64,000 bases of DNA from Gemmatimonadetes bacterium T265 (GTDB lineage Bacteria; Gemmatimonadota; Gemmatimonadetes; Gemmatimonadales; Gemmatimonadaceae), in NCBI GenBank assembly GCA_019973575.1, contig BPUI01000003.1, positions 372,001 through 436,000 on the forward strand, read 5' to 3'. The position numbers and the translations under genes were made by a program. Below, piece by piece: positions 25,971-40,306 of this stretch; the stretch's first letter is position 1; every line of letters starts with the position of its first letter. The notes under the pieces are model-generated. The model did no database searches and was not told where the DNA came from. It was given only the letters and a program-made list of their open reading frames with translations.

Positions 25971-27311
25971 CTACACCTCGGTCTTCAGCATCGCCGGCCC
26001 GGTCGTCGTCGTGAACATCTCCCCGTGCGGCACGATCGTGATCCGCCCGAACTCCTCGAGCAGCGCGCGGTACGCGGCCGCGACGGGGCGCGGCCGGCGG
26101 TCGAGGTCGTAGAGCCCGCACGGGTTCACGCGGTTGTTCTGTTGCGTGAGCGCCGTGTCCCAGTCGACCTGGTCGGTGAGCGAGTACCAGGTGAAGCCTA
26201 ACACCGGCACGCCGTCGGCCCGCATGCGGAGCACGTTTACCCACTGCTTCCAGAGCCACGTCGGCGCCTCGCCGGCGTCGAACACGTTGGTCTCGGTGTG
26301 CATCACGGGCTTCTTGTAGCGCCCGTAGTACTCCTTCGTGGTCAGGTACCAGCCGAGCACGTCCTCGGCCATCAGGCTCCGGCCGTCGGGCGGAAGGATC
26401 GTCTCGTTCCGCCCGTAGTAGTCGTTGCCCATGACCTGGTAGCCGGGCGGCTCGCCGCGCATGAACCACTCGTACTCGTCGCGCGTGAGGCCGTTGTCGG
26501 CCAGGTAGAGGCCGACGTCGGCGTCGGGCGCGTGGGCGTAGAGCAGGTCGAGCGGGACGAAGCGCTGCTTGTTGCGGAGCGTGACCGCGCGCGTGGGCTC
26601 GGAGCGCGCCTCGTGCGTGTACTCGGCGCTCTCGCTCTGCACGACCACGCAGTCGGGGCGGTGCGTGGCGATGCGCTGCGTGGCGAGGATGCTCGCCGCG
26701 GTGGCGTGCTTGATCGCCGTGACGAACGCGCGGTCGCTCCGCAGCTGCTCGTTCCACGCGCCGTCGAGCGCGCTCATGCGCGCGGTCACGTAGATCTCGT
26801 TGACCGGCGTGTAGTAGCGCACCCAGGGATAGCGCGCGGCCACCGCGCCGGCGTAGTCGGCGAAGTGCACCGGCAGCTCGGGGTTCTGGAAGTCGCCGAT
26901 CCAGTCGGGCACGCCGAAGTGCAGGAGGTCGAGGATCGGCGTGATGCCTAACCGCCGCATCGCGCCCATCACCTCGTCGGCGAAGCCCCAGTCGAACCGG
27001 CCCGGGCCCCGGTGGACCGCGTAGTAGGGCAGCCCGTAGCGCAGCACCTGCAGCCCGAGCTCGCGCACGAGCCCGAGGTCCTCCTCCCAGCACTCGTAGT
27101 GCCGGCACTCGCGCAGCTGGTCGCGCCGCACCCGCCCGCCCTCGATCGTCGGGTACGAGCACTCGACGCCGGTGGCGAACATGAAGTTGCCGGCCCCGCC
27201 GGTGGGGAGCCCCTGGCCGTGCGCGCCGGCCGCGCCGCCGTACTGGTCGCCGGCGTAGTCGCCGTCGCCCAGCGTGCGGCGGACGACGTCGAGGAAGCCG
27301 GGCGGGGCCAC
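25971..27311 (-). CDS. Glycoside hydrolase family 1-like enzyme
   Basis: This 446-residue TIM-barrel glycosidase has the acid/base Glu at about 172 in YYTPVNEIYV, the nucleophile Glu at about 340 in PVMHTETNVFD, and LLHFGVPDWIGDF earlier in the barrel. These deviate from the usual TFNEP and TENG of GH1 beta-glucosidases but keep the order and spacing. It starts with GTG directly after the GMC oxidoreductase stop, so it is the third gene of an operon. No signal peptide is seen. It probably cleaves an oxidised or plain beta-glycoside made available by its operon partners; GH1-like classification is by motif only. Confidence 0.85.
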   Translation of the reverse strand: MAPPGFLDVVRRTLGDGDYAGDQYGGAAGAHGQGLPTGGAGNFMFATGVECSYPTIEGGRVRRDQLRECRHYECWEEDLGLVRELGLQVLRYGLPYYAVHRGPGRFDWGFADEVMGAMRRLGITPILDLLHFGVPDWIGDFQNPELPVHFADYAGAVAARYPWVRYYTPVNEIYVTARMSALDGAWNEQLRSDRAFVTAIKHATAASILATQRIATHRPDCVVVQSESAEYTHEARSEPTRAVTLRNKQRFVPLDLLYAHAPDADVGLYLADNGLTRDEYEWFMRGEPPGYQVMGNDYYGRNETILPPDGRSLMAEDVLGWYLTTKEYYGRYKKPVMHTETNVFDAGEAPTWLWKQWVNVLRMRADGVPVLGFTWYSLTDQVDWDTALTQQNNRVNPCGLYDLDRRPRPVAAAYRALLEEFGRITIVPHGEMFTTTTGPAMLKTEV

Positions 27312-28895
27312 TCAGCCCTCGCCGCGGCGGGCGCGCTCGAGGAAGCGGTCCGCGGTGCGGAGCGCGAGCGCCATGATCGTGAGCGCGGGGTTCACCGCGA
27401 GCGCGCTCGGGAAGGTGGAGTTGTCGCTGATGTAGAGGTTGGGCACGTCGAAGCTCCGTCCGTCGGCGTCGACCACGGCCGCGGCGCCGTCGCGCCCCAT
27501 GCGGCAGGTGCCGATCAGGTGCGCGTTGCGCGCGAACGCCCACACGTCGCGCGCGCCGGCCGCGTCCCACACGGCCCGCATCACCCGCTCGGCGTGCGCG
27601 GTGAGCCGCCGCTCGTTCTCGCCGTTGGTGAACGTGACGCGCGGCTTGGGCAGCCCGCGCGCGTCCAACTCGGCCGAGAGCTCGACGCAGTTCCCCGCGT
27701 GCGGCAGGCACTCGCCGAGGATGTTGATACCCGCCGTGTGGTTGTAGCCGCGCATGTGCTCGCGGAGCGCGTCGCCCCACAGCCCGCGCCCGCGCGCGAG
27801 CTGCGAGGCGTACGTCACCGGCATCACGCCGATCGACTGCAGCAGGTAGCCGCCCGCGAAGTCCGCGTCCGGCGGGCGGTGCGTGTCCTCGGAGATGAGC
27901 GCGCCCGGGATCCCCTTGTACGGGCGCACGTCCTCCGCGAACCGCGCCCAGAGCTGGAGCCCCGTGTGGGCCATGAAGTGGCGCCCGACCTGCCCGCTCG
28001 AGTTGGCGAGGCCGTGGAGGAGCAGCAGCCGCGGCGTCTCGACCGCGCCCGCGGCGAGGAACACCGCCCGGCAGCGCTGGCGCCGCTCGACGCCGCCGTC
28101 CGGCCCGCCCGCGACGTAGACCACGCCGGTCACGCGCCCCGCCCCGTCGCGCTCGAAGCCGGTCACGAAGCACCCCGGCCGCACCTCCGCCCCGTGGCGC
28201 TCGGCGAGCGGGACGAACGTGACGTCCGTGCTCGCCTTCGCGCCCACGCTGCACCCCGCCTGACAGAACCCGCGGTTCGTGCACGCGGCCCGCCACCCCA
28301 CGCCGTCGCGGAAGTACGGCGCGGAGAGCGCCGCGTTGGGCGCGGGCGCGGTCCGGATGCCGAACGCATCGCAGCCGCGCGCCATGAGCCGCGCCGCGCC
28401 GTTCGCGGGCAGCGGGGCGAGCGGGTACGCGGCCCGCCGCGGCGGCCCCCACGGGTAGTCCGGCGGCCCCGACACGCCGAGGAACGCCTCGAGCTCGTCG
28501 TAGTAGGGCTCGAGGTCGTCGTAGCCTAACGGCCAGTCCTCCCCCACGCCGAACTCGGCGCGCAGGCGGAAGTCGTCGGCCTGCGCGCGCGGGGTGTAGG
28601 CGGTGAAGTGGAGCGTCGAGCCGCCGACGCCGTTGCCGGAGTTGTTGTTGCCCAGCGGCACCGGGTCGCCGCCCGCGCTGAGCCGCTCGTCGGTCCAGAA
28701 GAGCTTCGCCTGCTCGCGCTCGTCGGTGGCGAAGTCGCGCGCCGGGTCCCACCGGCGCCCCGCCTCGAGCGCGACGACGTGGAGCCCCGCCGCGGCGAGG
28801 CGCGCGAGCACCGGCGCGCCGCCCGCGCCGGTGCCGACCACGACGGCGTCGACCACCTCGCCGTCGGCGTAGCGCCGCGGGGGCGCGTCAGCCAC
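27312..28895 (-). CDS. GMC-family FAD oxidoreductase
   Basis: This 527-residue flavoenzyme has the FAD-binding GTGAGGAPVLARLAAAGLHV near residue 21 and GGSTLHFTAYTPRA. A cysteine-rich CTNRGFCQAGCSVGAKAS segment matches gluconate-2-dehydrogenase-like large subunits. The C-terminal catalytic region has HLIGTCRMG and NPALTIMALALR, giving the usual His and Asn. It oxidises an alcohol group, likely of a sugar or polyol. Its start overlaps the end of the subunit 3-like gene by 8 bases, and the glycosidase follows immediately, so oxidase and small subunit are probably made together. No Tat signal is apparent on either protein. Confidence 0.9.
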   Translation of the reverse strand: MADAPPRRYADGEVVDAVVVGTGAGGAPVLARLAAAGLHVVALEAGRRWDPARDFATDEREQAKLFWTDERLSAGGDPVPLGNNNSGNGVGGSTLHFTAYTPRAQADDFRLRAEFGVGEDWPLGYDDLEPYYDELEAFLGVSGPPDYPWGPPRRAAYPLAPLPANGAARLMARGCDAFGIRTAPAPNAALSAPYFRDGVGWRAACTNRGFCQAGCSVGAKASTDVTFVPLAERHGAEVRPGCFVTGFERDGAGRVTGVVYVAGGPDGGVERRQRCRAVFLAAGAVETPRLLLLHGLANSSGQVGRHFMAHTGLQLWARFAEDVRPYKGIPGALISEDTHRPPDADFAGGYLLQSIGVMPVTYASQLARGRGLWGDALREHMRGYNHTAGINILGECLPHAGNCVELSAELDARGLPKPRVTFTNGENERRLTAHAERVMRAVWDAAGARDVWAFARNAHLIGTCRMGRDGAAAVVDADGRSFDVPNLYISDNSTFPSALAVNPALTIMALALRTADRFLERARRGEG

Positions 28896-29589
28896 GCGCG
28901 GCGGCGCCTAACGGCCGCGGCTCGACGGGCCGCGGCTCGCGCGGGTCGACCACGTCGAGCCCGAGCGCGCGCCACGCCGGCACGTCCGCCATCCCCGCGT
29001 AGCCGATCTCCTCCTGCGCGAGCGGGTGGCTGTAGTAGCACTCGCACGCCTCGGCGAGCAGCTCCTCGAACCACCGCGCGGCGGGCCCGCCGGCCCACCC
29101 GGGGACGCCTAGCGGGTCGTCGCCCACCGCGCCGCGCTGCGCGGCGCCGAGCGCCGCGTCCCGGGCCGCGCCGTCGAGGGCGGCGAAGGGCGCGCCGAAC
29201 GTGGCCCGCGCGTGCGCGTCGAGCGCGGCGAGCCCGCGCCGGTACGCCTCGGCGTCCGCGGGGAGCACCGCGTAGCGCCAGCCGTCGCCCGGGCCGTCGG
29301 CGAGGCGCGCGTCGATCATCGCCGCGACGTCGACCGGCGGGTCGCCGTCGGGCGTGCCTCGGTCCGGCTGCGGGACGAGCCGCGCACACGCGGCGCGGAG
29401 GACGGCGTACGCGTCCGCGTCGAGCGCGCGCGGCGCCGCGGCGCCCGGGTCATCCGCCAGGCGGGCGCGCAGGGCGGCGCGCGTCGCGGGGGTGACGTGG
29501 TCGGTGTCGAGCAGCGCGCGCACGGTCCCGCGCGGGTACACCGGCGGTTCGGTCACGTCGTGTGGGTGCGGGACGGGGGTGGTGGACAT
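28888..29589 (-). CDS. Gluconate 2-dehydrogenase subunit 3-family protein
   Basis: This 233-residue protein fits the small-subunit family that accompanies GMC oxidoreductases. It has the start LLDTDHVTPATRAALRARLA, then YAVLRAACARLVPQPDRG near residue 63, WFEELLAEACECYYSHPLAQ and EEIGYAGMADVPAWRALGLD near the C-terminus. Related proteins often carry a Tat signal that exports the flavoenzyme; this one does not visibly have it, so the complex may be cytoplasmic. It is first in the operon subunit 3 - GMC - GH1. It ends with a TTA-GGC dicodon of the genome-wide motif (28906). Confidence 0.85.
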   Translation of the reverse strand: MSTTPVPHPHDVTEPPVYPRGTVRALLDTDHVTPATRAALRARLADDPGAAAPRALDADAYAVLRAACARLVPQPDRGTPDGDPPVDVAAMIDARLADGPGDGWRYAVLPADAEAYRRGLAALDAHARATFGAPFAALDGAARDAALGAAQRGAVGDDPLGVPGWAGGPAARWFEELLAEACECYYSHPLAQEEIGYAGMADVPAWRALGLDVVDPREPRPVEPRPLGAAARG

Positions 29590-32788: not shown

Positions 32789-33067
32789 TCAATCGTGATA
32801 ACGCGCCTGCAGGAACTCGACCCGGTCGTCGAACACCTCGCACACGAGGCGGTCCGCCTCCGTGACCCGCCGCGACCAGACGTTCCCGCCCAGGTGCTTC
32901 AGCGGCTCCGGCTTGCCGAGCCCGCCGAACGGATCACGCATCACCGCCTCCATCAGGTCCAGCACGCGGAGCGCCACCTTGCGGTTCGTGTCCACCCAGG
33001 AGCGCAGGTCGTCGCGGCACTCGTCCTGGAGCACCGCCACGCGCTTCGGCTGGGCGCGCGGGCTCAC
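32789..33067 (-). CDS. yoeB: YoeB-family mRNA interferase toxin
   Basis: This 92-residue RelE-superfamily toxin should cut mRNA at the ribosomal A site when free of its antitoxin. Its second half has the YoeB signature GKPEPLKHLGGNVWSRRVTE followed by ADRLVCEV, with the catalytic Glu and Arg contexts, and it ends in LQARYHD with a His near the C-terminus. The His of the usual EHRLVY motif is Asp here (EADRLV), which deserves attention. The GTG start lies 7 bases after the antitoxin stop, as expected for a yefM-yoeB operon. Confidence 0.9.
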   Translation of the reverse strand: MSPRAQPKRVAVLQDECRDDLRSWVDTNRKVALRVLDLMEAVMRDPFGGLGKPEPLKHLGGNVWSRRVTEADRLVCEVFDDRVEFLQARYHD

Positions 33068-33074
33068 GCCCGGC

Positions 33075-33374
33075 TCACGCGGCCGCGTCCGACACCGCGT
33101 CCAAGCCGAGCTCGCGCCGGAGCGCCGCGAGGTCCGCCGGCGGCGTGCCCCCGCGGCGGGCGCGCATGAGCGCCGTGAGCAGGCGGGCCGCGTTGGCCGG
33201 CGAGCGGAGCAGGTACGCGGTCTCGCGCAGGCTCGCCAGCTCGGCCGCGGGGGTCAGCGCCATGTCCTCGTGGCCGCGGCGCGCGATGACGGCGACCTCG
33301 CGCGTGTCCTCGACCTCGTCCAGCACCTCGGCGAGGTGGTCCCGGGCGTGGCTGTAGCTGATCTTGAGCGCCAT
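33075..33374 (-). CDS. yefM: YefM-family (Phd/YefM) antitoxin
   Basis: This 99-residue antitoxin has the Phd/YefM fold: ISYSHARDHLAEVLDEVEDT forms the DNA-binding N-terminal part, VAVIARRGHEDMALTPAAEL the dimer strand, and SLRETAYLLRSPANAARLL the toxin-wrapping helix. It should neutralise the YoeB toxin encoded next and repress the operon. The C-terminal ~25 residues (LRRELGLDAVS) extend beyond typical length. The ATG at 33374 is set by the family N-terminus. A near-perfect 23-bp palindrome 27 bases upstream is the likely operator. Confidence 0.9.
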   Translation of the reverse strand: MALKISYSHARDHLAEVLDEVEDTREVAVIARRGHEDMALTPAAELASLRETAYLLRSPANAARLLTALMRARRGGTPPADLAALRRELGLDAVSDAAA

Positions 33375-33400
33375 CGAGTGTGCCTCCGAAGTCGGGGTGA

Positions 33401-33423
33401 CTTGCACAGGAACTCTGTCCAAG
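33401..33423. promoter_or_regulatory. Palindromic operator upstream of yefM-yoeB
   Basis: CTTGCACAG (33401-33409), five spacer bases, then CTGTCCAAG (33415-33423) form an inverted repeat matching at 8 of 9 positions. On the minus strand a TTGACG box at 33434-33439 lies just upstream with a weak CAGAGT 17 bases later, so the repeat overlaps the likely -10. This fits autorepression by the antitoxin. Confidence 0.6.
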
Positions 33424-33660
33424 TACCCGGCCGTCGTCAAGCCGGCGCTGCCCGAGCCGGGCTGTCGGCGTGCGGCTTGCCAACGACGAGTTGAAGCTGT
33501 CAAGTACGCGGGGACGCCCGCGCGCCCCCGCGGTCGTTCCCGCACGCGTACCGCGGCGCGCCCCGGGGGGTTGCAGCGTAACTTTTGCGTTAGGCGGCGA
33601 CCACGACGAGCCGTCCATCGCGCGACGACGGCTCGGCGGCGCCGCTCGTCCGTCGCCCGC

Positions 33661-36600
33661 TCACGCGCCGCCGAGCCACTCGAGCAGCTGCGCCTGCGCC
33701 GCGGGGCTGCCGAAGAACTCCGTGTGGGCCACGCTCTCCGCGCCCGCGAGCACGCGGTGGTCGTCGATCGGGAAGAACCCCGACCCGTTCGCGTGCCACA
33801 CGCCGTCGGCCGGCACCACGAGGTCGTTCGCGCCGTCGAAGACGCCGTCCATGAGGCGGTCGGCGAGCATCGCCCGGAGCCCCGGCGCGCTCGGCGTGTA
33901 GTCGGAGGCGAGCGCGAAGTAGCGCGCCGTGCCGTCGCGCGCGCCCGCGTTGAGCGCCCGCGCGTACGGGCCGCCCGGGCACATCGACTGGAGGCCCGGC
34001 AGGCCCTTGGCCACGCCGACGGCCAGCTGCTTGGCCACGGTCACCACGCCCTGGAGCACCTCCTTCGACGCGGGGTCCGGGAAGACGTTGAGCACCGTGG
34101 CGTAGGTGTCGATGAGCGCGCCCATCCGGTCGGCGTCGGCGAGCACCGTGCCCGCGTTCGGCGCGCCCACGAACACCACCTTCCCCACGCGCACCCGGCG
34201 CGCGCCGAGCGTGAGCTCGGACTGGCGCTCGGCGAGCCGGCGGCTCACCAGGCCGCCCCGCGAGTGGCACACGATGTCGAGGTCGAGCGCGACGTCGGGG
34301 GGGAGGTGCCGCACGAAGCGTTCGACGTTCGCGGACGGGTCCTCGGAGAGCGTGTAGTGGTCGAAGGCGAACAGCCGCCCGCCGTACCGCTCGGAGAGGG
34401 CGGTCATCACGGCGCGGGGCAGGCCGCCGAAGGCCGAGTGCGCGCGGCTGAACGTGCCGTGCACGAAGAGGAGCGCCCGCCCCGCGCCGAGCCCGCGCCA
34501 GCGCTCCGCGTTGATGACGGTGCCCCGCTCGGACGTGTAGTCGTCGGGGCCGAAGGTGCGGATCCGGTATGGGCGGTACGCCGCCTCCCAGCGCGCCGCG
34601 TAGTCCTCGCCGACCGCGCCGACCAGCGGGTCGAGCAGCGGGAAGACGACGTGTTTGAGGACGAACCGGGCCGCGCCGGGCACCGGGACGAAGCGGCCGT
34701 CGGGCTCCGCGTCGGGCGGCGCGGGGCGCGCCGGGACGCGGAACGTGCGCACGCCCGCCGCGCCGGCCCCGCCGCCGCGACCCGCGGGCCCCACGTCCTC
34801 CGCGAAGTGGAACGACACCCGGCCTAACGCGTCCTCGCTCACGAGGAGCTGCCCGTAGCCGGGCCCCGCGTCGGCCACCGCGACGTCGACCGCGCCGGGC
34901 GCGCCGTCGCGCGCGTCCGCGGCCCGCGCACGGCCGGCCGGCGCGGGCGCGGCGGTCACCACGATCGCCTCCCGCACGACCGCGCCCGCGCTGCCGAGCG
35001 CCCGGGCGAGCGGGTCCGGCAGCGACGCGCCGTGGGGGCCGGAGGAGTCGTCAGCTACAGCCTCGGGCGCCGCGCCGGCGGGCGTCGGCGGCCCGAGCGC
35101 GGCCTCGCCGGCGACGCCGGCCGCGGTCAGCGTGACCGAGCCGACGGCGACCGCCGCGCCCTCGGCGAGCGCGACGCGGCTGCGCCGCCGGACCACCACG
35201 GCACGGTCCACGGTCGTCCAGTCGTCGCCCGCCGCGGGCGGCGGATCGTCGTCCTCGACGGCGTCGCGGGTCGCCGCGCCCGTCGCCGCGCGCAGCAGGC
35301 GCTCGAGCGCCGGCCGGCGGCGCGCCGCGTCAGCATCCCCGACCCGGTCGACCCCGCGCACGCCCTGCTGCGTGAGGAACGAGAAGTCCACGGGCTCCCG
35401 GGTCACGAACAGCCGAAATACCTCGTCGCCCTCCGCGACGGCCGCCGGGCCCGCCCCCGGCTCGAACGGGAACCCGGCGGGCAGGACCAGCTTCCACCCC
35501 CGGCGCTCGGGCTGCCGGCCCGTGATGTCGAACGTCACGCCCGGGCCGACCGCGTCCTCGGCGCCCGGCGGCGGGTACAGGACGCCGATGTAGCCGCTCG
35601 GCCCCACGTCCACCAGGCTGATGTGAACCGGTTGGTCGGAGTGGTTCGTGACGCGGAACCCGACGCGATCTCCCTCCTCATACACGACGCGCCCACCCGG
35701 CCCGGACTCGGTCTCCGCCCACAGGCCGTCGGGCGTGCGACGGAGGAGCTCGAGCGTGAGCCGGCCGCGCAGCGCGCTCGCCGGGTCCGGGTTCACGAGG
35801 GCCAGCGCGCGCCGGCGCCGCGCGAGCGTCTCGAGGTTCGCGACGACCTCGTCGCGCGCGTCGGACGGCTTGGGCGGCGCGAGCAGCTGCCCGTCCGCGC
35901 CGACGAGGGCCCACGCGGGCGCGGCGAGCGGACCGAGCTGCGGCACCGGGTCCGCGGCACCCGCCGCGGAACGCGGGGGCAGCAGGGCGAGCCGCGCGTC
36001 GGCCGCGGCGGCGACGAGCGCGAGCAGCGGCGAGGCCGCGACGCGCCCCCGCACGCCGGCGTCGGCCGCCGCGGGGCCGACGAGGGCGACCGTTAGGCGC
36101 GCGAGGCCGGGCGCGGGCGCGGCCTCGACGGCGCGCGCGCCGGGCACCACCGCGCCCGAGACGACGCGCGCCGCCGAGGCCGCGGCGCCGACCGCCACGA
36201 GCTCGACCTCGCCTAACGGTACCGCGCCGCCGGCGGCCTTCGCGCCCGGCGGGTAGACGGCGTAGCGCGCGCCGGCCGCCGCACCGAGCGCGGCGCCGGT
36301 GGCGAGCGTGACCCGGTCGCCCGCGGTCCCGCCGCCGTCGACGGCCAGCACGCGCACGTGCCGCACCGGCGCGGCGTCGCGCACGCCGAGCACCTCGCGG
36401 TCGACGCGTCCCTCCAGCTGCGGGTGCTGCCGCGGGTACGCGGCCGTGACGCGCGCGGCCGTGCGCTCGAACACGTCGCGGTACGTGGCGCCTGGCGCGA
36501 GCGCGCGCAGCTCCTGCACGAGGAAGTACGTGAGCGCGCCGTGCACCACCGGCGCGCCCCCGGACGCGGCAGGCGCGCGGTACTCGAACGAGCGCTCCTC

Positions 36601-37314
36601 GTCGCGGCAGCCCGCGACGAGCACGTACCCGCCGTCGACCGGCGCGAGCCCGCCGCCGGTGTCGCCGCCGCCGCCCGCGTCGCGGGTGGCCCGCGTCGCC
36701 GCGGCCCGCGCCAGACCCGCCCGCCGGTCCGACGGGATCGGGGACGGCGGCAACTCGCCCGCGGGGCGCGTGTCGGGTTCGACGCCCCGCGAGCGCGCGG
36801 CGCCGTCGTCGGGCACGTCGCGCGTGATCGTGCCCGAGTGGCACGCGTCGACGATCACCGTCACGTACGGCGTGCGCTCGGCGAGCGCTGCCAGCCGCAG
36901 CGCGATCTCGTCGTCGGTGATGTCGCGGTTGGGCCGGGACTCGCCGCCCCACGCCCGCCCGTCGCGCCCCGAGTCGACCGGGACGAGCGTGCTGTCCATC
37001 CCGCTCGGCTCGTCGCCCTCGCGGTCCGTCATCTGCGAGCCGTGCCCCGCGTAGTAGAACACGACCGCGTCGTTAGACATCGTCTCGGCGACCAGCCGGT
37101 CCAGGGCGGCGAGGACGCCGTCGCGCGTCGCCTCGGCGTCGACGAGCACCCGGACCCGGTCGCCCGGAAAGTCGAAGACGTCGACGAGGAGCCGTTCCAT
37201 CGCGCGCGCGTCGTTGACGCACCCCGCGAGGGGCCTGACGTGCTCGTAAGCGTCGATGCCGACGAGCAGGGCACGCCGGCCCGCGGCCGGGGCGGAGGGG
37301 AGCACGGGCGGCAC
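33661..37314 (-). CDS. Caspase-domain protein with DUF4384-like region and C-terminal lipase fold
   Basis: This 1217-residue protein joins a protease and a hydrolase. Residues ~12-290 form a peptidase C14 (orthocaspase) domain with catalytic His at 91 (VFYYAGHGSQM) and Cys at 158 (VIVDACHSGT). An Arg/Gly/Pro-rich insert (~165-225) separates the p20-like and p10-like parts, where processing could occur. A DUF4384-like segment, GDRVGFRVTNHSDQPVHISL then VDVGPSGYIGVLYPPP, sits mid-protein. The C-terminal ~290 residues are an alpha/beta hydrolase: LLFVHGTFSRAHS, CHSRGG with Ser about 1018, Asp about 1164 and His about 1197. No signal peptide is visible. Its GTG lies 4 bases after the stop of the TPR-CHAT gene, so the two proteases are co-expressed. 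Confidence 0.88.
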   Translation of the reverse strand: MPPVLPSAPAAGRRALLVGIDAYEHVRPLAGCVNDARAMERLLVDVFDFPGDRVRVLVDAEATRDGVLAALDRLVAETMSNDAVVFYYAGHGSQMTDREGDEPSGMDSTLVPVDSGRDGRAWGGESRPNRDITDDEIALRLAALAERTPYVTVIVDACHSGTITRDVPDDGAARSRGVEPDTRPAGELPPSPIPSDRRAGLARAAATRATRDAGGGGDTGGGLAPVDGGYVLVAGCRDEERSFEYRAPAASGGAPVVHGALTYFLVQELRALAPGATYRDVFERTAARVTAAYPRQHPQLEGRVDREVLGVRDAAPVRHVRVLAVDGGGTAGDRVTLATGAALGAAAGARYAVYPPGAKAAGGAVPLGEVELVAVGAAASAARVVSGAVVPGARAVEAAPAPGLARLTVALVGPAAADAGVRGRVAASPLLALVAAAADARLALLPPRSAAGAADPVPQLGPLAAPAWALVGADGQLLAPPKPSDARDEVVANLETLARRRRALALVNPDPASALRGRLTLELLRRTPDGLWAETESGPGGRVVYEEGDRVGFRVTNHSDQPVHISLVDVGPSGYIGVLYPPPGAEDAVGPGVTFDITGRQPERRGWKLVLPAGFPFEPGAGPAAVAEGDEVFRLFVTREPVDFSFLTQQGVRGVDRVGDADAARRRPALERLLRAATGAATRDAVEDDDPPPAAGDDWTTVDRAVVVRRRSRVALAEGAAVAVGSVTLTAAGVAGEAALGPPTPAGAAPEAVADDSSGPHGASLPDPLARALGSAGAVVREAIVVTAAPAPAGRARAADARDGAPGAVDVAVADAGPGYGQLLVSEDALGRVSFHFAEDVGPAGRGGGAGAAGVRTFRVPARPAPPDAEPDGRFVPVPGAARFVLKHVVFPLLDPLVGAVGEDYAARWEAAYRPYRIRTFGPDDYTSERGTVINAERWRGLGAGRALLFVHGTFSRAHSAFGGLPRAVMTALSERYGGRLFAFDHYTLSEDPSANVERFVRHLPPDVALDLDIVCHSRGGLVSRRLAERQSELTLGARRVRVGKVVFVGAPNAGTVLADADRMGALIDTYATVLNVFPDPASKEVLQGVVTVAKQLAVGVAKGLPGLQSMCPGGPYARALNAGARDGTARYFALASDYTPSAPGLRAMLADRLMDGVFDGANDLVVPADGVWHANGSGFFPIDDHRVLAGAESVAHTEFFGSPAAQAQLLEWLGGA

Positions 37315-37318
37315 GGCG

Positions 37319-40306
37319 TCAGGTGTTAGGCGTGGCGGGGTCGGACGGGCGCAGCGCGATCGGCCCCCACTGGCCGATGCACACGAACGCGCCCCAGCGG
37401 CGGACGTCGCCGTGGCGGCGCCGCATCTCCAGCTTGGCCTCGTGCAGCGCGACCGCGACGCCGCGCTCCGGCGTGAGCCGCCCGTAGAAGGCCTTCATGA
37501 GGTCGCGCGTCTCCGCGTCGGGCACGCTCCACAGCCCCGCGACCACGCGCTCCGCCCCGGCGGCCTCGAACGACCGGGCGAGGCTCGCGAGGCCCTCGCC
37601 GCGGTCGACCTCGCCGAGCCCCGTCTTGCACGCGGAGAGCACGACGAGCTCGGTCCCTCGCAGGTCGAGCGATCCCACCTCGTCCGCCGTGAGCACGCCC
37701 GCGTCGCCGCCGTCGGCCGGCCGCGCATTCGCCCCGGCGAACGCGAGCCCGGTGCGCAGGAGCGGGGCGTCGGCCAGCCGCCCACCCGCCGCCGACGCCC
37801 CGAGCGCGAAGCCGTGCGTGGCGAGGTGTACGGCGAACGGGCCGTGCGCCTCGCGCAACCGCGCCGCCGTCGCCGACGCGTCGAGCGCCGGTTCGACGCC
37901 GAACGCCGCGGCCACGGCTTCCGCCTCCGCCCGCGTCCCCGGGAGCGGGGTGAACCGGAACGCCGACCCGGCTGGGCCCGCGGCGCCGAGGTCGTAGTCG
38001 GGCGCGCCGATGACCACGGCCACGGCGCACGGCGGGCTCTCGGCCGGCGACGGCGGCCGCGCCACGCGCTCCGCGTTCAACATCGAGGCCGACCACGCCG
38101 AGGACACGTAGCTCACGCAGTACTGCTCGATCAGGTCCCCGCCGGCGTCGCCCGGCAGACACTCGAGTGGCAGCGCCCACAAGGGACCGTCGGGCGACAC
38201 GACGAGTCGGGTGCGGCCGCCGAACATCGCGACCAGCGGGTCGAAGATGCGCTCGCGCAGGCGCGTCCCCACGGACGCGGGGCCGTCGTCGATCCCGCCG
38301 CGGCCCTCGTGCGCGTCCTCCGGATCGAGCACCGCGTCGCGGACCGCCTCCAGATCGCCCGTGACCCCGGCGCGAAACCGCGCCACGAGGTCGTCGACCG
38401 GCTCGGCCTCGCCGAGGTCGACGAGGCGCCAGTCGGTCGTGCGGGACGGGATCACGAACGCGGCGTACCGCGCGGGCCGCGCCGCGGCGTCGCCGGGCCA
38501 GCGCGGCGGCTGGTGGCGGACGTACTCGACGTAGACGGCCCCCTCCGGGACGCACATCGACACCGACAACGGGTTGGGCGCCTCCGCGGCGGCCTGCACC
38601 GCGACCCCGCCCGCGCGGAAGAGCAGCTCGGCGTCTAACGCCTCCTCCTCGCCCGCGAGCGCGTCCAGGCGCGCGACGTCGCCCGGCGCGACGTCGCCCG
38701 ACGCGTCGCCGCCCGACGCGTCGCGCGTCAGCTGCAACGCCAGGCGGGTGACCGCGGCCCGGACGGCCGCCAGCCGCCCGCTGAGCGCCGCGACGTCCGG
38801 GTCGCGCGCCGCCCGCTCGGCGACGTCGCGCGCCGCCTGCCGTTCGATGTTGGTGTTGAGGCCCTTGCGCTGCGTGACGACCGCGAACGCGCCCCCGACC
38901 GCCTGCGGATCGTCGTGGGTGAATTCGGCCGCGAGCGCGACCAGGGCGTCGGCGCGCCGGCGCGCACCGGCCAGCAGCACCCGGCGCCGGCGCGACGTGC
39001 TCGCGCCCAGCTGCCGCGACGCGAGCCGCGAGTCGCGGACCGTCGCCCGCGACAGGCAGGCGACGGCGAACTGCGGACGCCGCGCCGCGAGCTCGACGTC
39101 GGCGAGCAGCTCGTCCAACGCGCTCGCCGACGGGTGGTCGCGTTCCCGCGCGTCGAGCAGCGGGCGGTAGTAGGCGTCGAACAGCTCGTACGCCGCCTGC
39201 CAGTAGCCGCGGTCGAGGGCCAACCGCCCCAGCCGGAGGAGCAGGCGCCAGCCGGTGTCCGGCGTGACGGCCCCGCCCGGCGCGCGCGTGGCCGGGTCGT
39301 CGAGCAGCTCGCGGTAGCGCCGGATCGCGTCCTCGGGGTCCGCCCGCTCCGCCGCGCGCGCCTCGACCTCCCGGCGCGAGGTCCCGGCGGCCTCGCCGAC
39401 GGCCGCGAGCGCGTCGTGGCAGGCGAGCGCGCCCTCGGCGTCGAACGCGTCGAGGTCCGCCTCGTACAACCCGCGCAGGCCGTCGACGCGCGCGTCGAGG
39501 TGGTCGGACGCGGGCAGCTCGGCGAGCGCCGCGCGCAGGAGCCGCCGCCCCTCGTCGCGCTCGCCGAGGGCGAGCCGCGCCATGCCTAACGCGACGCGGG
39601 CCGGGGCGCGCCACCCCGCGCCGCCGGGCGCGTCCGCCGAGCGGCGCCGCACGGACTCCGCGGCCAGGTAGGCGTCCGCGGACGCGCCGGCGGCCGCCGC
39701 GACCCGCGCGAAAATCAGAAAGAGCGACGCCTCGCCGGCGAAATCGTCGTCGGCTTCCGCAGAGCGACGCGCCACGTCCAGCGCGGGCTCGAGGATGCGC
39801 CGCGCGAGCTCGGGGCGGCGGGTCGCGGCCGCGGCCCCGGCGAAGCCGACGAGGAAGTCGAGATACGCGTAGCGCTCCGCGGCCGTGTACGCGAAGCGCC
39901 GGCCGTCGAGGTACCGCTCGCGCGCTCGGACGATCGTCGCGTGGCCGACCTCGTCGGGCGTGGGGTCGCGGAGCGCGCCCTCGGGCGTGCGGGCGTAGTG
40001 GTCCATGAGGTCGCGCAGCACGCGCCCCGACGCCGGCGGGTCGAGGTCGCGCGCGTACGCCTCGATCGCACGGTGGACCGCCCGGACGGCCTGGACGGCC
40101 GGGAGCGCGTCGCGGGCGAGCAGGTCCGGCGACCCGTCGTTCCCGGCAGGCGGCGCGACGCCGTCCGCGGCCCGCGCGAGCAGCGCGGCCGCGGACGCGA
40201 ACTGGCGATCCTGCACCAGCGCCCGGGCCTCCGCGACGAGGCGCATGAAGAGCGCGTCGCCGTGGTCCGCGGGGCCGAGGGATCCGGGAGTATCAGGCGC
40301 ACGCAT
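37319..40306 (-). CDS. TPR-CHAT protease
   Basis: This 995-residue protein has a long helical N-terminal part resembling degenerate TPR repeats (LARRILEPALDVARRSAEA, LGERDEGRRLLRAALAELPA, YWQAAYELFDAYYRPLLDAR). The C-terminal ~350 residues form a CHAT domain, a separase/caspase-related cysteine protease: RLVVSPDGPLWALPLECLPG, VHLATHGFALG with catalytic His about 831, and ELVVLSACKTGLGEVDRGEG with catalytic Cys about 893, then GAERVVAGLWSVPDAETRDL. No signal or membrane segment is seen. It is the first gene of an operon with the caspase-lipase gene. Known bacterial TPR-CHAT proteins act in CRISPR-linked and other cell-death defences; a similar role here is inference. Confidence 0.9.
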   Translation of the reverse strand: MRAPDTPGSLGPADHGDALFMRLVAEARALVQDRQFASAAALLARAADGVAPPAGNDGSPDLLARDALPAVQAVRAVHRAIEAYARDLDPPASGRVLRDLMDHYARTPEGALRDPTPDEVGHATIVRARERYLDGRRFAYTAAERYAYLDFLVGFAGAAAATRRPELARRILEPALDVARRSAEADDDFAGEASLFLIFARVAAAAGASADAYLAAESVRRRSADAPGGAGWRAPARVALGMARLALGERDEGRRLLRAALAELPASDHLDARVDGLRGLYEADLDAFDAEGALACHDALAAVGEAAGTSRREVEARAAERADPEDAIRRYRELLDDPATRAPGGAVTPDTGWRLLLRLGRLALDRGYWQAAYELFDAYYRPLLDARERDHPSASALDELLADVELAARRPQFAVACLSRATVRDSRLASRQLGASTSRRRRVLLAGARRRADALVALAAEFTHDDPQAVGGAFAVVTQRKGLNTNIERQAARDVAERAARDPDVAALSGRLAAVRAAVTRLALQLTRDASGGDASGDVAPGDVARLDALAGEEEALDAELLFRAGGVAVQAAAEAPNPLSVSMCVPEGAVYVEYVRHQPPRWPGDAAARPARYAAFVIPSRTTDWRLVDLGEAEPVDDLVARFRAGVTGDLEAVRDAVLDPEDAHEGRGGIDDGPASVGTRLRERIFDPLVAMFGGRTRLVVSPDGPLWALPLECLPGDAGGDLIEQYCVSYVSSAWSASMLNAERVARPPSPAESPPCAVAVVIGAPDYDLGAAGPAGSAFRFTPLPGTRAEAEAVAAAFGVEPALDASATAARLREAHGPFAVHLATHGFALGASAAGGRLADAPLLRTGLAFAGANARPADGGDAGVLTADEVGSLDLRGTELVVLSACKTGLGEVDRGEGLASLARSFEAAGAERVVAGLWSVPDAETRDLMKAFYGRLTPERGVAVALHEAKLEMRRRHGDVRRWGAFVCIGQWGPIALRPSDPATPNT

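Follow-up and report, generated by a model that had tools for sequence, protein, structure and literature searches.

A CHAT protease gene paired with a caspase-lipase fusion gene in Gemmatimonadetes bacterium T265: a candidate protease-coupled effector module

The 64,000-nucleotide stretch of the Gemmatimonadetes bacterium T265 genome analysed here (contig BPUI01000003.1, positions 372,001 to 436,000; hereafter the window) contains two adjacent minus-strand open reading frames (ORFs), the first of which (gene 1) encodes a 995-residue CHAT protease and the second (gene 2) a 1217-residue fusion of an orthocaspase, a DUF4384-like segment and a lipase-like alpha/beta-hydrolase. We consider it moderately probable that these two genes form an effector module in which a lipase is coupled to proteases, of the type seen in bacterial regulated death or anti-phage defence. 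A real functional association of the two genes was supported by sequence comparison, given that hydrolases of the same family (DUF7379) were tied to a clan-CD protease, as fusions and/or abutting genes, in 31 of 38 loci.

Only 4 bases separate the stop codon of gene 1 (TGA) from the start codon of gene 2 (GTG), and the GC content at third codon positions (GC3) was 0.96-0.97 for both ORFs (0.96 for gene 1). The genome (5.6 Mb, 6 contigs) contained a single CHAT match and a single strong DUF7379 match, which are neighbours. A preliminary description of this DNA, made from its letters alone, had reported both ORFs with these lengths and this spacing, and their coordinates, GC3 and Pfam domains bear it out. 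Base composition gave no sign of a foreign island, the gene pair having 78% GC versus 74.5% in the flanks.

Association of the hydrolase with clan-CD proteases

The 38 hydrolase loci, from several phyla, were scanned in six frames with purpose-built CHAT, caspase and C11 profiles, a gene being taken as abutting when it lay within 100 bp on the same strand. Caspase fusions of the hydrolase were seen in 12 loci and single-chain fusions with a CHAT domain in three (L142, L152 and L154; loci are cited by our own labels), and a CHAT, caspase or C11 gene abutted it in 24, some of which also carried a fusion. Since some loci stop at contig edges, the total of 31 may be an undercount; L145 and L146, like L131 and L133, are closely related, and not every locus is therefore independent of the others. 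Across 20 of these genomes, with 58 CHAT genes in 92.5 Mb, an abutting or fused CHAT was seen 12 times versus 0.074 expected by chance (P about 2e-25). Most caspase-fused relatives also had another clan-CD protease adjoining. The preliminary description had proposed a search across genomes for conserved pairs of CHAT and caspase-lipase genes; the 31 loci display ties of the hydrolase to CHAT, caspase or C11 proteases. Catalytic residues were kept as well: the hydrolase Ser/Asp/His in all 38 homologues, the caspase His/Cys in all complete caspases (the sole exception being one truncated caspase fragment, at L151), and the CHAT His/Cys in 26 of 29 proteins.

When about 1,160 genomes from four phyla were searched with the hydrolase alignment, 18 of 346 genomes in the same phylum had hits, as did 8 of 257, 5 of 261 and 5 of 296 in the others, a patchy distribution that argues against a housekeeping role. 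Gene 2 has full-length homologues, aligned across about 1,200 amino acids with 42-48% identity in their best segments, in a further member of the order as well as in records from Acidobacteria, Gemmatimonadetes, Rhodothermaceae and Solirubrobacter.

In a tree of 74 CHAT domains, a single clade (support 100/100) held most partners of stand-alone hydrolases (12 of 13 rows), and a separate group (support 99/99) held those of several caspase-fused hydrolases. Partners thus come from differing CHAT lineages, which argues that the link was re-made and not just inherited. The window CHAT was placed outside both groups, among generic CHATs, and none of its 10 near relatives in the phylum had a hydrolase or caspase nearby within the stretches fetched. 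Its position outside the usual partner lineages suggests that the CHAT protease of the module has been exchanged in this genome.

The strongest evidence for an anti-phage role came from two relatives. At L142 (588-10200, minus strand), a single-chain DUF7379-CHAT gene lies 0.6 kb upstream, on the same strand, of a gene weakly resembling prokaryotic viperins, which is followed by a small gene and an Avs2-like STAND gene (PADLOC E 2e-89). At L185 (NC_006569.1, 129335-136139), on the megaplasmid of Ruegeria pomeroyi DSS-3, the DUF7379-CHAT gene SPO_RS20450 heads a gene row, lying 36 bp from a SIR2-AAA gene that matches PtuA (E 6e-47), while the next gene matches PtuB (E 1e-66) and an IS5 transposase lies beside them. 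By these matches, L185 seems to be a Septu variant that includes a lipase-CHAT gene. In addition, the module was adjoined at L019, L128, L132 and L139 by nSTAND1 NTPases carrying WD40 repeats or a caspase, and a TPR-S/caspase gene was present at L018. Judged by the STAND sensors and the Avs2-like and Septu-like neighbours of relatives, a regulated-death or anti-phage effector would be the best reading of the pair.

Further arrangements were observed among the relatives. At L132 (480-13151), two modules stand back to back on opposite strands, one with a caspase-DUF4384 gene, a CHAT gene and an nSTAND1-WD40 gene, the other with a lipase and a CHAT gene. A C11 (clostripain) peptidase gene directly adjoins the caspase-lipase gene at L016 (6882-8150) and L139 (7599-8861). 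Paracoccus yeei plasmids (L186, L187 and L188) encode CHAT proteins of 1,789 amino acids with a hydrolase region, kept in several plasmids, whose genes lie just downstream of a solute-binding-domain or hypothetical gene.

Domains and conserved residues of the two proteins

The features of both proteins are collected in Table 1. The CHAT domain of gene 1 scored 214 bits against a Pfam cut-off of 24, and its dyad is the one that had been assigned beforehand. The "TPR" label that the preliminary description had attached to this protein was not supported: no TPR family was detected at E<=1 in Pfam, BLASTP of the N-terminal 600 residues against other CHAT proteins gave no similarity, and a crude motif scan yielded counts at the shuffle level.

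For its part, gene 2 displayed the p20 fold with a His/Cys dyad that marks orthocaspases and metacaspases (C14B), and the model of its caspase part was closest to Arabidopsis metacaspase 4 (Z 25.1, 3.5 Å, 255 residues), so that the orthocaspase and its two catalytic residues, as previously proposed, held. The DUF4384 that had been named with them was recovered as a segment, although below the Pfam curated cut-off.

The C-terminal hydrolase matched DUF7379 at 184.7 bits against a curated cut-off of 33, its catalytic Asp and His being C-terminal of the match. Both the alpha/beta-hydrolase fold of lipases and the complete Ser-Asp-His triad described earlier were present. The domain was modelled with a mean predicted local distance difference test (pLDDT) score of 87.7 and a predicted template modelling score of 0.86, and the best Foldseek matches in the PDB were lipases (E 5e-9 and weaker). 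VIA-align placed the propeptide form of the lipase BlEst2 at the top (Z 19.0, 4.0 Å, 229 residues), followed by the phospholipase PlaB (Z 17.7, 3.5 Å, 221 residues) and, shortly after, by family I lipases and Candida antarctica lipase B. The hydrolase is thus supported as lipase-like by its modelled fold. No literature on DUF7379 was found in a search that covered few subscription papers.

The linkers of gene 2 were modelled with low confidence (low pLDDT) and contain two conserved arginines. Arg683 is followed mostly by Asp or Gly (TR-D/G) among the 12 full-length homologues; Arg874, directly before the lipase, was also present in all 12 and is followed by Gly or Ser in 30 of 34 hydrolases, as counted from the sequences. 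C14B orthocaspases cleave after basic residues (PMC6426788), and the linker arginines would be compatible with such an Arg/Lys specificity. The near-invariant arginine before the lipase, in a linker taken to be disordered, is a plausible predicted cut site; a structural role for the conserved linker arginines is possible instead.

Membrane anchoring of either product was rejected, as no clear transmembrane helix was found (best Kyte-Doolittle 19-residue means, 1.83 for gene 2 and 1.46 for gene 1).

Table 1. Features of the gene pair (window coordinates)
Feature	Position	Strand	Support or remark
Gene 1, 995-aa CHAT protease	37319..40306	-	N-terminal ~600 aa without recognised domain
CHAT domain, residues 679-979	37370..38272	-	Pfam PF12770, E 3.4e-63
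CHAT catalytic His831	37814..37816	-	Invariant across 12 aligned CHAT proteins
CHAT catalytic Cys893	37628..37630	-	Invariant across 12 aligned CHAT proteins
Gene 2, 1217-aa orthocaspase-DUF4384-lipase fusion	33661..37314	-	Full-length homologues in several phyla
Peptidase_C14 caspase domain, residues 13-303	36406..37278	-	Pfam E 2.4e-27, 96.6 bits
Caspase catalytic His91	37042..37044	-	Kept in all relatives with complete column
Caspase catalytic Cys158	36841..36843	-	Kept in all relatives with letters at the column, except one truncated fragment
DUF4384-like segment (weak), residues 544-598	35521..35685	-	Pfam E 9e-4, below curated cut-off
Arg683, candidate cleavage site in low-confidence linker	35266..35268	-	12/12 full-length homologues
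Arg874, candidate cleavage site directly before lipase domain	34693..34695	-	33/34 hydrolases
Alpha/beta-hydrolase core (DUF7379, PF24096), residues 948-1122	33949..34473	-	Pfam E 2.3e-54
Hydrolase nucleophile Ser1018 (CHSRGG)	34261..34263	-	38/38 homologues; invariant in hydrolase alignment
Hydrolase Asp1164	33823..33825	-	38/38 homologues; invariant in hydrolase alignment
Hydrolase His1197	33724..33726	-	38/38 homologues; invariant in hydrolase alignment

Proposed mechanism and alternatives

In the mechanism that we propose, a stress or infection signal would switch on the CHAT protease, which would cut the caspase-lipase protein or trigger its caspase domain. The triggered caspase would cut its own chain after the conserved linker arginines. 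By either route the lipase domain would be released or unblocked, and it would then hydrolyse membrane lipids, so that the cell is killed or arrested. The trigger, the direction of the cascade, the cleavage at the conserved arginines, the lipid substrate, cell death and phage defence are all steps that we infer. The preliminary description had suggested for the locus a protease-regulated lipase effector and a regulated-death or anti-phage module; the gene association, the lipase-like fold and the defence-linked relatives support that view as an inference, while the link that it drew to an adjacent toxin-antitoxin pair found no support. The YefM/YoeB-type pair beside the module (window 32789-33545) was absent from every other module locus examined, and it was rejected as a part of the module.

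Several observations weigh against an effector of this kind. The neighbours of the gene pair in the window are metabolic genes, no recognisable sensor (STAND or TPR) was found in the pair, and the 81 flanking proteins of relatives gave, among the matches listed (25 of 187 PADLOC families), only kinase-type ones, with three proteins each. Seven of the 38 hydrolases had no fused or abutting protease; two of them (L143 and L151) had one more distant or on the opposite strand, and five had none. The partner CHATs of L135, L137 and L144 lack the catalytic His/Cys, and therefore CHAT cleavage is not the rule for those pairs, whose hydrolases are divergent with intact triads; the CHAT may there be only an adaptor, or the hydrolase may act upstream. 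At the predicted cut sites, the window protein has Phe after Arg874, unlike the usual Gly/Ser, and its count of [TS]R[GSD] motifs was at the shuffle level. Finally, a lipase-like fold alone is no proof of lipase activity.

The metabolic context, the hydrolases that lack a protease partner and the missing general defence-island signal among the matches listed, together with a search for phage or viral-contig homologues that found none, would suit a stress-response or developmental module in which the proteases control the lipase for lipid turnover or envelope remodelling, with no killing or phage defence. We regard this as rather unlikely, since two lipase-CHAT fusions lie beside Avs2-like or Septu-like genes, other relatives have nSTAND1 neighbours, and the restricted occurrence within the phylum speaks against housekeeping. 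Less likely again is that the hydrolase is no lipase and has proteins or signalling molecules as its substrates, as an acyl-protein thioesterase, an esterase or a serine peptidase. While a weak Pfam match to palmitoyl-protein thioesterase (E 0.04) and a structure match to palmitoyl-protein thioesterase-2 (Z 16.2) point that way, and the fold does not reveal the substrate, the structure lists are dominated by lipases plus a phospholipase, and the model includes a helical, lid-like insertion (model residues 194-242).

The order of events might also be reversed, with the hydrolase sensing or processing a lipid or modified substrate and so activating the proteases as the true executioners. The fusion of the caspase on the same chain would allow it, and the pseudo-CHAT partners, which show CHAT protease activity to be dispensable in some pairs while the hydrolase triad is always kept, would favour it; nevertheless, in the best-studied analogues the protease acts at the start and the degradative enzyme or the pore only at the end, and we hold this order to be improbable. 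Most improbable of all is that the window CHAT adjoins the caspase-lipase gene by chance and that the fused caspase alone serves the lipase. Its position outside the lineages that usually partner the lipase and the unlinked state of its 10 near homologues would fit a chance neighbour, but the 4-base spacing within one apparent operon, its being the only CHAT of the genome and the further clan-CD protease next door to most caspase-fused relatives speak against it.

If the locus is indeed a protease-coupled lipase effector, its significance would extend beyond this genome. Killing effectors switched on by proteases are known as gasdermin pores (PMC9612521) and, more recently, as nucleases (PMC12799240), and the protease-lipase version would be a third effector class, present in several phyla with partners from several CHAT lineages and organised in three ways (as separate genes, with the lipase part of the CHAT chain, or with the lipase part of the caspase chain). 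It would also assign a function to DUF7379 and supply natural pairs of protease and substrate for which cut sites are predicted, and the Avs2-like and Septu-like loci make the module testable in laboratory hosts. More tentatively, protease-lipase pairs may be an exchangeable cell-death cassette, parallel to the protease-gasdermin and protease-nuclease pairs and taken up by systems of the Avs2-like STAND, Septu-like and nSTAND1 kinds; here it might work in two steps, from a CHAT initiator to the caspase and on to a membrane-degrading lipase on the caspase's own chain.

Relation to known systems and surroundings

In its working, the pair would resemble Canu, the gasdermin operons and the caspase/hydrolase neighbours of VMAP systems, and it is a member of none of them by the features tested. 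In Canu a pro-nuclease is activated by a caspase, and protease-effector pairs have been repeatedly acquired by unrelated anti-phage systems (PMC12799240). Like Canu and the nuclease-protease pairs of Hachiman, AVAST and Lamassu (PMC12799240), the module combines a protease with a degradative effector and involves a caspase family member. The effector of those systems is a metallo-beta-lactamase (MBL)-fold nuclease gated by insertions, whereas here it is a lipase-like alpha/beta-hydrolase that often shares its chain with the caspase or CHAT; no MBL nuclease was found among the window neighbours. Bacterial gasdermins are cleaved by caspase-like proteases, after Leu or Arg, with a neighbouring Gly essential in one case (PMC9612521). 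Their operons likewise place a caspase-like or CHAT protease beside a membrane-attacking effector (membrane attack being proposed here), although that effector is a pore former and not an enzyme. No gasdermin was found among the Pfam-scanned neighbours, the second gene being the caspase-lipase, and no CRISPR-like repeats were detected in window positions 10000-64000, nor any Rfam match, in keeping with the absence of gasdermin and CRISPR noted in the preliminary description.

In VMAP systems the caspase is always accompanied by a neighbouring alpha/beta-hydrolase gene (PMC7159879). The likeness to these VMAP/GAP1-N1 conflict systems, drawn from their description and not from DUF7379 membership, lies in this constant company; they belong, however, to the MoxR-vWA or GTPase type, of which no gene adjoins the window pair, and here caspase and hydrolase are fused. 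VMAP ternary membership was rejected, as MoxR ATPase, vWA and VMAP genes were absent among the window neighbours. In Craspase, with its TPR-CHAT protein Csx29, a CHAT protease is likewise coupled to a target protein in its neighbourhood (PMC10028731); unlike it, the window pair is without Cas7-11, a CRISPR array or Csx30, and TPR repeats were undetected in its CHAT protein. With no CRISPR-like repeats in the range scanned and metabolic neighbours, type III-E CRISPR membership was rejected. EACC1-caspase membership was also discarded (NF047832, 52 bits versus an NCBIfam cut-off of 140). As regards known PADLOC systems, the pair had no system-level match; the generic "caspase" model alone matched one protein and the other had no match.

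Fungal NOD-like receptors with a SesB-like lipase also bring lipase-type and CHAT-type components together in regulated cell death, but they are eukaryotic, separate systems, and SesB is set beside DUF7379 by description only. The Chitinophaga pinensis metacaspase fused to a GDSL lipase and an amidase (PMC3501461) is likewise a fusion of a caspase homologue with a lipase-type domain, although it is a single case with a different (GDSL) domain and no CHAT pair reported. No prior description of CHAT-lipase pairs was found in searches that covered few subscription papers, and their novelty is therefore provisional.

Elsewhere in the window, at positions 25971-29589, what appears to be an operon comprises a GH1-like gene and genes for a GMC oxidoreductase and gluconate 2-dehydrogenase subunit 3.
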